From NCBI RefSeq assembly GCF_012848475.1, contig NZ_CP051666.1:209501-273500 (forward strand): DNA of 64,000 nt. Reading direction: 5' to 3'. The DNA is from Marinobacterium sp. LSUCC0821 (GTDB taxonomy: Bacteria > Pseudomonadota > Gammaproteobacteria > Pseudomonadales > Balneatricaceae). Positions within the stretch are counted from its first letter, which is position 1. The number at the start of each line of letters is the position of its first letter. The notes below the pieces were generated by a model. That model did no database searches. It had not been told where the DNA came from and saw only the letters and a program-made list of their open reading frames with translations. The translations under genes were made by a program, and so were the position numbers. Below, piece by piece: positions 26,080 through 30,082 of this stretch.

Positions 26080-26163
26080 GATTTAACCCTTGTTGTATCT
26101 ATCCATGAGCCTTAAGAATAAAACAAAGATTCAGTGTTGCCCATGCTAAGATTCAATTTCTTA

Positions 26164-27006
26164 ATGAAAAAACTGACTGTGGGCAAAATGTTTCGAGTTC
26201 TTACTGCTCTCTTACTCTCTTCTCTGCTTTCGATTGATGCGTTTGCGGCTCGATTCGTCGTACTTGCTCCTGATTTAACTGAAAATATGTTTGCTATAGG
26301 TGCAGGGGAGTCGGTAGTAGGTCGTGTTGAATCAGCGGATTTTCCATCAGAAGTTACCTCTATCCCGGTAGTTGGAGACTTTCAATCTATTAATGCTGAA
26401 TTGATTCTTTCACTTAAACCCGACTATGTATTAGCTTGGCAAGGGGGGAATCCCGAGAGGCATTTGCAGTATCTGGAAGGGCTTGGATTGAATGTGGTGC
26501 GTCTAAGTTCTCAGTCAATTCTAGATCTGCCCGAGCAGCTTAGATTATTAGGAGAGCTGAGTGGTCAGATTGAAGTAGCTAATAAACGTGCAGTTGAATT
26601 TGAAACCGAGCTGCAAGGTCTATCTGAGGGGCGTAAAGGTCGAAATTTACCGATCTTCTATCAAATTTGGCACTCTCCATTGATGACTATTAATAGCTCT
26701 TCATGGATTACCGAGGCTATCACCTATTGCGGTGGCTTGAACCAGTTTGCGGATAGGGCAGAGGCTGTACCGCAATTAACGGTAGAATCGATAATTGCCG
26801 CTAATCCAAAGCTGATTATTGCAGGCAGCGGGGCGGATCAAAGCTGGGTCGAATTTTGGAAGCCTTGGGGTATGATCGATGCTGTGGCTAATAATCAGCT
26901 CAAGATAGTGGAGGCTGACTATCTTCACCGTTTGACTATGCGAACTCTGTTGGGGATGGAGCAGCTGTGTCAGACAATTGATTCAGCTGCAGAGGTTTAT
27001 CATTAG
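26164..27006 (+). CDS. btuF: BtuF-like cobalamin/haem ABC transporter substrate-binding protein
   Basis: This is a periplasmic helical-backbone binding protein of the BtuF/FhuD/HemT superfamily. Its place beside a B12 riboswitch operon favours vitamin B12. It has a signal peptide ending near DAFAA, then motifs typical of the class: VVGDFQSINAELILSLKPDYVLA and LTVESIIAANPKLIIAG. The frame could start at 26134, 26164 or 26188; none has a good ribosome binding site, and I chose the second because it gives a compact Lys-Lys-leading signal peptide. No BtuC or BtuD gene is adjacent. It ends 2 bp before a convergent gene. Confidence 0.78.
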   Translation: MKKLTVGKMFRVLTALLLSSLLSIDAFAARFVVLAPDLTENMFAIGAGESVVGRVESADFPSEVTSIPVVGDFQSINAELILSLKPDYVLAWQGGNPERHLQYLEGLGLNVVRLSSQSILDLPEQLRLLGELSGQIEVANKRAVEFETELQGLSEGRKGRNLPIFYQIWHSPLMTINSSSWITEAITYCGGLNQFADRAEAVPQLTVESIIAANPKLIIAGSGADQSWVEFWKPWGMIDAVANNQLKIVEADYLHRLTMRTLLGMEQLCQTIDSAAEVYH

Positions 27007-27008
27007 GG

Positions 27009-27344
27009 TTAGTTAGACTCTTTTTTCATTCCGTTTAAGAAGTCTTTTGTTTTATCCCAAGCATTCTCACCCATCTCTTTAACCGAGTCTGAGGTCAGAC
27101 CGTTGATAAAAGACTTGGAGTCTTCAAGAACCTCTTTGCCAATATCGGTCGCTTTATCAGCTCCAACTTTGGCCGAGCAAACCGCGCGCTCTGCAACGCA
27201 TCGTGATATGCAGCCGGCTTGTTCTGCGTCATTCGTTACAAAACGAACTTTGCAGGTCGCCTCACACCAATTCTGCTCCAATGCACAGTCTGCATTGGCT
27301 AAAGGTGAAACTAGAGAAAGGGCTAGAACAAACCGATACATCAT
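27009..27344 (-). CDS. Small exported protein with six symmetric cysteines, B12 operon
   Basis: I do not recognise this family. The 111-residue product has a signal peptide (residues 1-18, cleavage likely after ANA). Six cysteines follow at 20, 27, 31, 45, 49 and 56, giving the mirror spacing C-x6-C-x3-C-x13-C-x3-C-x6-C, and then a charged helical tail. The pattern suggests a disulfide-stapled helical hairpin in the periplasm. Its ATG overlaps the stop of the cobalamin adenosyltransferase gene (TAATG), so it is probably the third gene of the B12-controlled operon. Function is unknown. Confidence 0.72.
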   Translation of the reverse strand: MMYRFVLALSLVSPLANADCALEQNWCEATCKVRFVTNDAEQAGCISRCVAERAVCSAKVGADKATDIGKEVLEDSKSFINGLTSDSVKEMGENAWDKTKDFLNGMKKESN

Positions 27345-27907
27345 TAACTCTCACGCTGTTTAGATGGCTGCCAGAGTACTTCCTCTTCGCCATTACGTCG
27401 AGCGAAAACCCTCGCAATCACAAATAGCAGATCTGAAAGTCGATTGAGATAGGCTACTGACTGCGGGTTAATCGTTTCGCTTTGAGCAAGCTCCACTAAA
27501 CGACGCTCTGCACGGCGACAGATGCTGCGCGCTAGATGCGTCTGCGCAGCACTTGGCGTGCCGCCCGGTAGTATGAAGTTCTCAAGCGGCGGTAGTGCTT
27601 CGTTGTATGAGTCCAATGTCTGCTCTAAACGATCAATCATAGCTGGCGTAATAGCCTGATATTCGTCGCTTGCCATCGCCAACTCACCACCTAGATCAAA
27701 TAGATCGTTCTGAATCTGACGCAGCACAGGCGAGAACGCATCCTCATAAGAGAGATGTGCATCAATAACGCCAATCAGACAATTAAGCTCGTCAATATCG
27801 CCCATCGCTTCAATGCGAGGGTGTGTCTTATGCACTTCAGTGCCAGTGGCAAGTCGGGTAGTCCCCTTGTCGCCAGTGCGTGTGTAGATTTTGGTGAGTC
27901 GACTCAT
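27344..27907 (-). CDS. Cob(I)yrinic acid a,c-diamide adenosyltransferase, PduO type
   Basis: PduO/MMAB-type adenosyltransferases attach the 5'-deoxyadenosyl group from ATP to cob(I)alamin. The 187-residue product has the N-terminal ATP-binding signature YTRTGDKGTTRL, GDIDELNCLIG, and the C-terminal RRAERRLVEL and YLNRLSDLLFVIAR segments of the family. It lies 3 bp after btuB and is thus under the cobalamin riboswitch; it would convert imported corrinoid to coenzyme B12. Confidence 0.94.
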   Translation of the reverse strand: MSRLTKIYTRTGDKGTTRLATGTEVHKTHPRIEAMGDIDELNCLIGVIDAHLSYEDAFSPVLRQIQNDLFDLGGELAMASDEYQAITPAMIDRLEQTLDSYNEALPPLENFILPGGTPSAAQTHLARSICRRAERRLVELAQSETINPQSVAYLNRLSDLLFVIARVFARRNGEEEVLWQPSKQRES

Positions 27908-27910
27908 TGT

Positions 27911-29869
27911 TTACTCAAAGTAATATTTTGCAGTTATTGAAAGGTTTCTTTCAGTAATGGGATAGTAACCAATTGTGCTTCCAGATAGGCTAGCAGTATT
28001 GACTGATTTTTTGTCGAATATGTTGTTTAGCTTGAAGCTAAATTCCCAACTTTTTTGTTTCAACAAACTGCTAAAGTTGAACGTGCTGTATCCTTTTATT
28101 TTATCGTAATTATTCAGGAAGTCCGCACCAACATAGCGTTCCCCAATATATTTCCAGTTTAGGTCGTTGATCAATCCGTTGTTGGTTTTCCAGGTTACCC
28201 CAGCATTGGCTGAGTGTTTTGCAGTTAAGGGGATGGTCTTATTGTTAAAGTCTAATGTTGTTCCGTAGTAATCAATTACAGCGTTTTCGACCTTCGCATT
28301 CAGATAATCATATCCAAAATTAAGGTCTGTTAATTCATTGATGCTTTTCTTAAGTGAAATGGATATGCCATTTCTCTCAGTCTTTTCAAAGTTAGTTGTT
28401 AAATAATTAGCGCCATCATAAATCAACTCATCATCTAGTCTTAACGTATATGCTTGAATTTGAGCAGTAGTTCCTTGTTCCTCAAACGTCAGAGCTGCTT
28501 CATAAGAGTTGCCAGTTTGGGTTTTAAGTGTGCTTGTTGAGCCTGCGTATAGATAATTGTTGTGCTCATCAACCAGTGCGAATCTGTAATTTTGGTCAGC
28601 CCTTAAATCAACACTCCAGTTTGGTGATATGTGTAATGTTAATCCTATATTGCCAACGGTTTGATTGTCGTTATTCTTTTGAGACAACGGAGATGTATGG
28701 GTGTTGCCAATATGAGTATATTCCATATACGCATGGCGTAATCCAGTGTTGATTGTGACTCTGTCGTTTATCTTGTGATCAAGAACCCCGTAAACGGCAT
28801 ATATGTTTTGATCAATGTTCATCGGACCAAAAGAAGACGAAAAAGCATAGTCTGTGTATGTATAGTCAATGCCTGTAAGAAGGTTTGTGTCTTCGTTTAG
28901 ATTGCTTATAACTCTTGGGCTAAACGAGACGCTCTTTCTGTCTTGAATGGTGTTATCAACAGAGCCGCCAATGTAAGCATTTGCATTAGTTTTTTCACTA
29001 TTTACAAATGCATCGACGGTAAGGGTATTAATACTGTCTATTGATTTTAAGTGATTAAGTTTAATTGAGGTCCCTTTTTTATCGTACCAATCATCAGCAT
29101 AAATATTTTGTGAAACGGTAGGATTGTTTAGAACATCGTTCACCGAACTTAATGGACCGCTGTTAAGCCAGTAATCTTCAATTCTTTGAATCGAAATTTG
29201 TGTATCACCCAACTGACTTTTTTTCTGAAAATTAACATTAAATTTCTTTAAGTCTGAGTCATTGTGGTCTCTAAAATTATTAGCTTCCGTTCTCTCTAGT
29301 GTGAGGTTGAATGAACTGTCTTTTGATAAATAGTCACCAATTGACGCTTTTACGGAGCTTCTATCAAAACTTCCAACCTCAACTGATGCGCTGTTATGGC
29401 GTCTGTTGTTCTTTTTGGTGATGATGTTAATAACTCCGCCAACCGCCTCATGGCCATAAAGTACTCCAGCACTACCTTTTATGATTTCAATTCGGTCTAT
29501 CTGTTCTAGGTTGAACATATTTAGATCTATGGATGATTGGTCTGCAGCGCGGTTGATCTTTTGACCATCAATTAGAATTACAGTATTGAAAGAGCTGAAT
29601 TCACCAAACCCTCTCATATCTATGTTCCCTTTGCCGTTCACTCCAGAACTGTCAGTGATTTGAATGAAGCTCTGTTGGCGAAGAATATCGGTTAAAGTAG
29701 AAGCACCACTATTCAAAATTTCATCTGATGTAATTACAGTCTTAGCAGCAGGAATTCCGATTGTTGATGATTCCATTCGGCTCCCTGTCACGAAAACCGT
29801 AATTGGATTTGCTAAGGCAAAAGAAGAAACAGTCGACGCTGCTAGGATAAGGGTCGTAAGTAATTTCAT
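27911..29869 (-). CDS. btuB: TonB-dependent outer-membrane receptor, probable vitamin B12 receptor BtuB
   Basis: This is a TonB-dependent beta-barrel receptor. The cobalamin riboswitch upstream and the adenosyltransferase downstream indicate B12 or related corrinoid as substrate. From the ATG at 29869 (preceded by GAGAGA) it has a signal peptide ending near FALA, a TonB-box-like segment (ITVFVTGSR) and the plug domain (GVNGKGNIDMRGFGEFSS, then IEIIKGSAGVLYG). A barrel of about 480 residues follows. An extra 7-codon upstream extension lacks support. The gene is visibly AT-rich: the 60 bases from 28021 contain 19 G/C, against 31 in the 60 bases from 27361. Confidence 0.87.
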   Translation of the reverse strand: MKLLTTLILAASTVSSFALANPITVFVTGSRMESSTIGIPAAKTVITSDEILNSGASTLTDILRQQSFIQITDSSGVNGKGNIDMRGFGEFSSFNTVILIDGQKINRAADQSSIDLNMFNLEQIDRIEIIKGSAGVLYGHEAVGGVINIITKKNNRRHNSASVEVGSFDRSSVKASIGDYLSKDSSFNLTLERTEANNFRDHNDSDLKKFNVNFQKKSQLGDTQISIQRIEDYWLNSGPLSSVNDVLNNPTVSQNIYADDWYDKKGTSIKLNHLKSIDSINTLTVDAFVNSEKTNANAYIGGSVDNTIQDRKSVSFSPRVISNLNEDTNLLTGIDYTYTDYAFSSSFGPMNIDQNIYAVYGVLDHKINDRVTINTGLRHAYMEYTHIGNTHTSPLSQKNNDNQTVGNIGLTLHISPNWSVDLRADQNYRFALVDEHNNYLYAGSTSTLKTQTGNSYEAALTFEEQGTTAQIQAYTLRLDDELIYDGANYLTTNFEKTERNGISISLKKSINELTDLNFGYDYLNAKVENAVIDYYGTTLDFNNKTIPLTAKHSANAGVTWKTNNGLINDLNWKYIGERYVGADFLNNYDKIKGYSTFNFSSLLKQKSWEFSFKLNNIFDKKSVNTASLSGSTIGYYPITERNLSITAKYYFE

Positions 29870-29914
29870 GATCTCTCTCAATGCGCCCACCGCGCATGGT
29901 TGGATGGTATTGAG

Positions 29915-30075
29915 AGTGGGCCGGTATCCGGGCTTGGAGGTCTCTATTTCAACGCCTTCCCAGCTGTCGCCAGTGGCATGATGTTGAAATAACCTTCCTT
30001 ACCGTTGCGGGGGCAGCGTCAGCTTCTACTGATCTTCCCGTTTAACGCTCAAAAAAGCGCACCTACTCCATTAAG
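29915..30075 (-). ncRNA. Cobalamin (AdoCbl) riboswitch
   Basis: On the minus strand the leader of btuB contains the conserved cobalamin riboswitch core: GGTGCGC with a T-run near the 5' end, AACGGGAA, CTGCCCCCGCAACGGTAA (about 29999-30016), the GCCACTG segment, and a B12-box-like end, AAGCCCGGATACCGGCC (about 29919-29935). When B12 is bound such elements block translation or transcription of transport genes. It begins right after the predicted promoter and ends about 45 bases before the btuB start codon. Boundaries are approximate. Confidence 0.95.
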
Positions 30076-30082
30076 GGGCGGG

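Follow-up and report, generated by a model that had tools for sequence, protein, structure and literature searches.

A conserved exported six-cysteine protein, probably a helical hairpin clipped by three disulfides, encoded behind a cobalamin adenosyltransferase gene

Why should one bacterial family keep the gene of a small exported protein directly behind its B12 adenosyltransferase gene? The question is posed by TC3, as the protein is called here, which is encoded in the window, by which is meant the whole 64,000-nucleotide stretch of the Marinobacterium sp. LSUCC0821 genome that was analysed (Table 1). An original prediction, made from the letters of this stretch, had described TC3 as an exported protein with symmetrically spaced cysteines and suggested a stapled helical hairpin, translation coupled to pduO, and a possible periplasmic role in B12 handling.

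Table 1. Features of the TC3 locus (positions in the window)
Feature	Coordinates	Strand	Basis
Six-cysteine exported protein TC3, 111 aa	27009..27344	-	ORF and homologue search
TC3 signal peptide, residues 1-18, cleavage between ANA and D	27291..27344	-	judged by eye
TC3 hairpin core C20-C56, C-x6-C-x3-C-x13-C-x3-C-x6-C	27177..27287	-	sequence, alignment, model
TC3 amphipathic C-terminal tail, 55 aa after C56	27012..27176	-	sequence comparison
pduO-type cob(I)yrinic acid a,c-diamide adenosyltransferase	27344..27907	-	TIGR00636, PF01923
TonB-dependent receptor, BtuB-like by context	27911..29890	-	TIGR01779, 117 bits, below cut-off of 599.7
Cobalamin riboswitch aptamer, upstream of receptor	29902..30081	-	RF00174, 101.4 bits
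BtuF-like periplasmic binding protein, convergent	26134..27006	+	PF01497; NF002894 below cut-off

TC3 is the apparent last gene of a riboswitch/receptor/pduO operon, judged by gene order: the riboswitch is followed by the btuB-like gene, pduO and TC3, these three genes being separated by 3 and -1 bases. The pduO/TC3 junction reads ...GTGAGAGTTAATGATGTAT, its TAATG overlapping the pduO stop, and the predicted coupling behind a B12 riboswitch thus appears to hold in the window genome. The real start of TC3 may be the second ATG (27341), which is better placed behind GAGAG. On the other side, the BtuF-like gene ends 2 bases from the TC3 stop. Promoter-like and terminator-like sites show no excess over shuffled sequences. 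The best match of the receptor by E-value is to a siderophore-receptor model; its score against the B12 receptor model lies far below the cut-off, so that its assignment to a B12 substrate rests on the riboswitch context.

The leader of TC3 is MMYRFVLALSLVSPLANA, followed by DC (assigned by eye rather than with a predictor); homologues have an equally short hydrophobic leader, mostly ending A-D-C in the alignment. TC3 is probably a small periplasmic protein exported by this leader, as had been proposed. A bacterial lipoprotein was considered and rejected: A-D-C or a similar sequence precedes the first Cys in homologues, and no lipobox is seen by eye. The genome of Marinobacterium sp. LSUCC0821 itself contains three genes of the DSBA family.

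The six Cys residues of the window protein (20, 27, 31, 45, 49 and 56) are spaced as the original prediction had it, and the exact spacing recurs at all 20 places found by tblastn-type search (window included) and in every one of the 28 named loci. Six Cys codons at these distances, taken as a bare DNA skeleton, also have a match in 86 of 299 genomes of the phylum, many of these matches being simple repeats. Such a skeleton is not rare by chance; it is conservation, not the pattern alone, that makes the observation real. (A set of 38 mature sequences, selected by their Cys pattern, is left out as evidence for the spacing.) Among ten compared pairs, the four with unsaturated dS yield core dN/dS values of 0.01, 0.02, 0.07 and 0.09; on these values the core is under strong purifying selection. 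The only invariant residues of alignment A2 are Cys, Gly, Ala and Phe. A corrinoid ligand within TC3 was rejected as the main reading, no His or other likely non-Cys ligand being invariant there. The hairpin unit also occurs in tandem: it is duplicated within one exported protein of genome G004 (L062, 518-1030; the genome also contains L006 and L025), and a second unit of such an arrangement is visible in G005 (L014/L033), where the contig end cuts the locus.

The mirror symmetry of the spacing has a simple structural meaning: the Cys pairs 31+45, 27+49 and 20+56 share a constant sum of positions, which is precisely what an antiparallel hairpin requires. Ideal-helix geometry places the three Cys of each arm within 40 degrees, on one face. 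The AlphaFold2 model of a 67-residue Amphritea homologue (L059) consists of two helices (residues 2-16 and 21-66), with a pLDDT of 75 overall and block means of 79-89 over the hairpin part; the model of the window TC3 has a similar first helix pair at a pLDDT of only 56.8. With models of this quality, the disulfide-stapled hairpin of the original prediction is probable: TC3 is probably clipped by three disulfides that join just these pairs as a three-rung ladder, a pairing that we infer. The cysteines may instead be free and bind metal. Foldseek comparison of the TC3 models with PDB folds yields no match at E <= 0.001, the top row being a vicilin leader at a non-significant E of 3.9. The best VIA-align match among the few rows compared (small Tim chains not among them) is a V-ATPase subunit at Z 6.7, which at the level of models is read as a common arrangement.

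The hairpin is followed by a tail of variable length. Counted from one residue after C56, it is 28 residues long in 15 and 39 residues long in 10 of 38 distinct sequences of the pattern-chosen set, a difference of exactly 11 residues between the two commonest lengths. Hydrophobic moments of tail 18-mers rise to ~0.5 in the four examined. The window tail contains two related units, SKSFINGL and TKDFLNGM; the tails of relatives commonly end TKSF(F/I/V)KG(L/A)TE.

TC3 homologues were found in 19 of 57 genomes searched, all 19 within the protein's own GTDB family (36 genomes); 21 genomes from other families of the order yielded none. A family profile search locates TC3 in 31 of 60 genomes and 8 of 16 genera, and the 28 loci with named records belong to Amphritea, Neptuniibacter, Marinobacterium, Pontibacterium and unclassified Oceanospirillaceae/Oceanospirillales bins. 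Across the class, a profile search of 369 genomes returned, besides the window, a single convincing distant relative (G295) and a weak match with stops (G346). Wide Cys-pattern scans mostly return wrong-frame matches or simple repeats: among 30 translated loci from the phylum, L084 alone looks like a genuine distant relative (L071 is doubtful), and in the class scans the only genuine-looking places, judged from the printed matches, are the window and L040/L146 (G295). On these searches, the occurrence of TC3 is mainly in one GTDB family. The distant relative at L146, 7575-7817(-), comes after a lipoprotein-like gene and an MlaD-domain gene (PF02470), hinting at a lipid-transport neighbourhood. 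A second one, from another lineage of the phylum (L144, 7809-8246(+)), adjoins a PAS-domain gene, and no B12 gene was recognised by eye in the stretch viewed there.

The window TC3 has no Pfam or PADLOC match up to E 1, one PHROGs match (E 0.11), and NCBIfam matches to the XAC1346 family (19.5 of 120 bits, E 0.0011) and lipo_Ag473, both far below cut-off; other members have scattered weak profile matches. PDB sequences provide nothing better than E 0.2 for TC3 members, and no relative was found among viral contigs, phages and plasmids. None of the literature titles and abstract beginnings searched names a bacterial twin-CX3C periplasmic family. By profile comparison, no entry of Pfam, NCBIfam, PHROGs or PADLOC matches the TC3 family convincingly. 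TC3 marks out a small conserved envelope protein family with nothing convincing in the profile libraries searched and, if the pairing holds, offers a clean natural design of three nested disulfides on one helical hairpin.

In 25 of the 31 TC3-bearing family genomes, coordinate comparison places TC3 immediately after pduO and on its strand. Four genomes have it elsewhere: with valS and holC as neighbours (L028), behind kinases that match Pfam APH and that we take to be srkA-like (L029, L030), and, at L187, close to uvrD-like and chemotaxis-hemerythrin genes. The locus of the other two (G005, G715) runs into a contig end and allows no decision. In 36 distinct linked loci (start codons set by leader length; seven rows with identical cores and the contig-cut L033 dropped), pduO and TC3 lie -26 to 137 bases apart, while the panE-pduO and TC3-btuF distances at linked loci range from under 100 to over 3000 bases. 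The tight gap, set against variable outer distances, suggests that shared transcription has been kept. At the Rfam gathering score, a cobalamin riboswitch is present at 7 of 14 fetched pduO-linked loci (the window apart) and absent from 6, with L025 undecidable because the contig is cut; four of these six, searched again at E <= 1, still yielded no cobalamin match. Some pduO-linked loci have no detected btuB. As gene order has it, TC3 keeps steady company with pduO rather than with the riboswitch or the receptor. Immediately upstream of pduO, in most cases between it and panE, there is often a polyphosphate kinase 2-like gene (L131, L135, L136, L139, L140; tested with PF03976 for L136 and assigned by eye for the other four).

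A Cob_adeno_trans (PF01923) match is found in 30 of the 31 TC3 genomes; of the 50 family genomes that have one, 20 lack TC3 (the match being marginal in one of them, G009), as do all nine without a match, G005 set aside. The co-occurrence has a Fisher p of 0.0008 counted per genome (without G005) and of 0.2 counted per genus. The latter is not significant, and shared descent thus explains much of the co-occurrence.

The reading of these facts that is preferred here, with confidence about evenly balanced, is that TC3 is a stapled periplasmic hairpin that shows an amphipathic helix to an envelope partner and is hitched to pduO. Its two helices would be stapled antiparallel by C31-C45, C27-C49 and C20-C56, and the second would run on into the amphipathic tail, with its conserved F-x-x-G-type stretches. 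The hairpin would serve as a rigid, protease-resistant scaffold, presenting the tail to the membrane surface or to a protein partner; TC3 itself would bind no corrinoid. In the window genome it would be translated with pduO from the B12-riboswitch operon; across the family, common transcription and descent would keep it with pduO, and it could also live elsewhere. We infer the scaffold or adaptor role, the co-transcription with pduO and the lack of corrinoid binding. PduO acts in the cytoplasm. A periplasmic TC3 cannot act on it directly, so that the two genes are most likely tied by a common promoter or by some loose physiological connection. The relatives found at other sites and away from B12 switches suggest that the job of TC3 itself is not specific to B12. 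Counting against the scaffold reading, the lasting adjacency to pduO in 25 of 31 genomes could signify a real link with B12 metabolism.

That link is the substance of the notion, unlikely on balance, that TC3 serves B12 uptake as an accessory, either by carrying corrinoids or by helping the TonB receptor or BtuF in the periplasm. The window speaks for it, with TC3 in a riboswitch-btuB-pduO operon convergent with btuF, as do the seven other riboswitch-bearing loci and the absence of TC3 from the nine family genomes lacking a Cob_adeno_trans match once G005 is set aside. The linked loci without riboswitch or without detected btuB speak against it, as do the four genomes with the gene elsewhere, the 20 that have Cob_adeno_trans and no TC3, the co-occurrence lost at genus level, and the lack of any invariant ligand except Cys. 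The B12 role of the original prediction survives to the extent that pduO is the usual direct upstream neighbour; as a B12-specific role it is not supported, because both kinds of contrary evidence that had been named for it were found in part: homologues away from B12 genes (in 4 of 31 genomes, and at the distant L040/L146 behind the MlaD-domain gene) and pduO-linked loci at which no cobalamin riboswitch is seen (6 of 14). Rather unlikely, too, is a neighbour with no functional tie, the result of one ancestral insertion behind pduO that was inherited with the conserved yajQ-panE-pduO block. The existence of that block both with and without TC3, and of TC3 beside srkA-like, valS/holC and uvrD-like genes, would be explained; the maintenance of the pduO-TC3 gap while the outer distances vary speaks against it.

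Two further proposals look beyond the operon to the shape of the protein. An oligomeric periplasmic chaperone for outer-membrane proteins, of the small-Tim kind, would account for the twin CX3C and the predicted helical hairpin, features described for small Tims (PMC3759932), in a topologically comparable compartment. It is nonetheless improbable: zf-Tim10_DDP (PF02953) reaches its cut-off in none of 60 family genomes, the sub-threshold matches listed all lie away from TC3 loci, and TC3 is absent from half of the family genomes. A third rung is, to our knowledge, not a feature of small Tims. More improbable still is that TC3, secreted or periplasmic, acts as an inhibitor or as an antimicrobial peptide of the alpha-hairpinin type. 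The profile PF14861 (Antimicrobial21), which we take to be the nearest for alpha-hairpinins, exceeds its cut-off nowhere in 60 genomes and matches no TC3 locus (one of 17 TC3 members reached E 0.11 in the profile check); the loop of the alignment has no conserved basic residue, and the steady vertical linkage is to a housekeeping gene. In favour of such a peptide stand the vicilin leader of the Foldseek comparison, non-significant as it is, and an inner Cys spacing equal to that of VhTI and EcAMP1 (PMC7191063). More speculative, and a long shot, is an independently evolved bacterial counterpart of the small Tims, a three-rung stapled hairpin that acts as chaperone or docking partner for a client in the envelope and is wired in one lineage to cobalamin adenosylation; if so, the amount of TC3 would follow B12 status in that lineage.

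Among known systems, the accessories of B12 uptake (in the BtuB/BtuF context) share operon or neighbourhood with TC3 in the window and in several relatives, but TC3 is not confined to that context and has no recognised B12-binding fold. The small Tims form a hexameric chaperone of the mitochondrial intermembrane space. Like TC3 as predicted here, they combine twin CX3C with a helical hairpin (for the small Tims, PMC3759932) and an oxidising compartment; unlike them, TC3 has the extra outer Cys pair and is exported by a signal peptide. The plant alpha-hairpinins (VhTI, EcAMP1, vicilin-leader peptides) are antiparallel helical hairpins with nested pairing, as is predicted for TC3. In VhTI and EcAMP1 the pairs are Cys7-Cys29 and Cys11-Cys25, and their CX3C-x13-CX3C spacing equals that of the inner four Cys of TC3 (both from PMC7191063), which by its spacing would be compatible with the alpha-hairpinin Cys1-Cys4 and Cys2-Cys3 disulfides. 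TC3 differs from these peptides in being bacterial, in its extra outer Cys pair, the predicted third rung, and in its long amphipathic tail, and no sequence relationship to them is detectable. Since no profile relationship joins TC3 to the small Tims or to the plant peptides, its likeness to both is one of design, not of membership.
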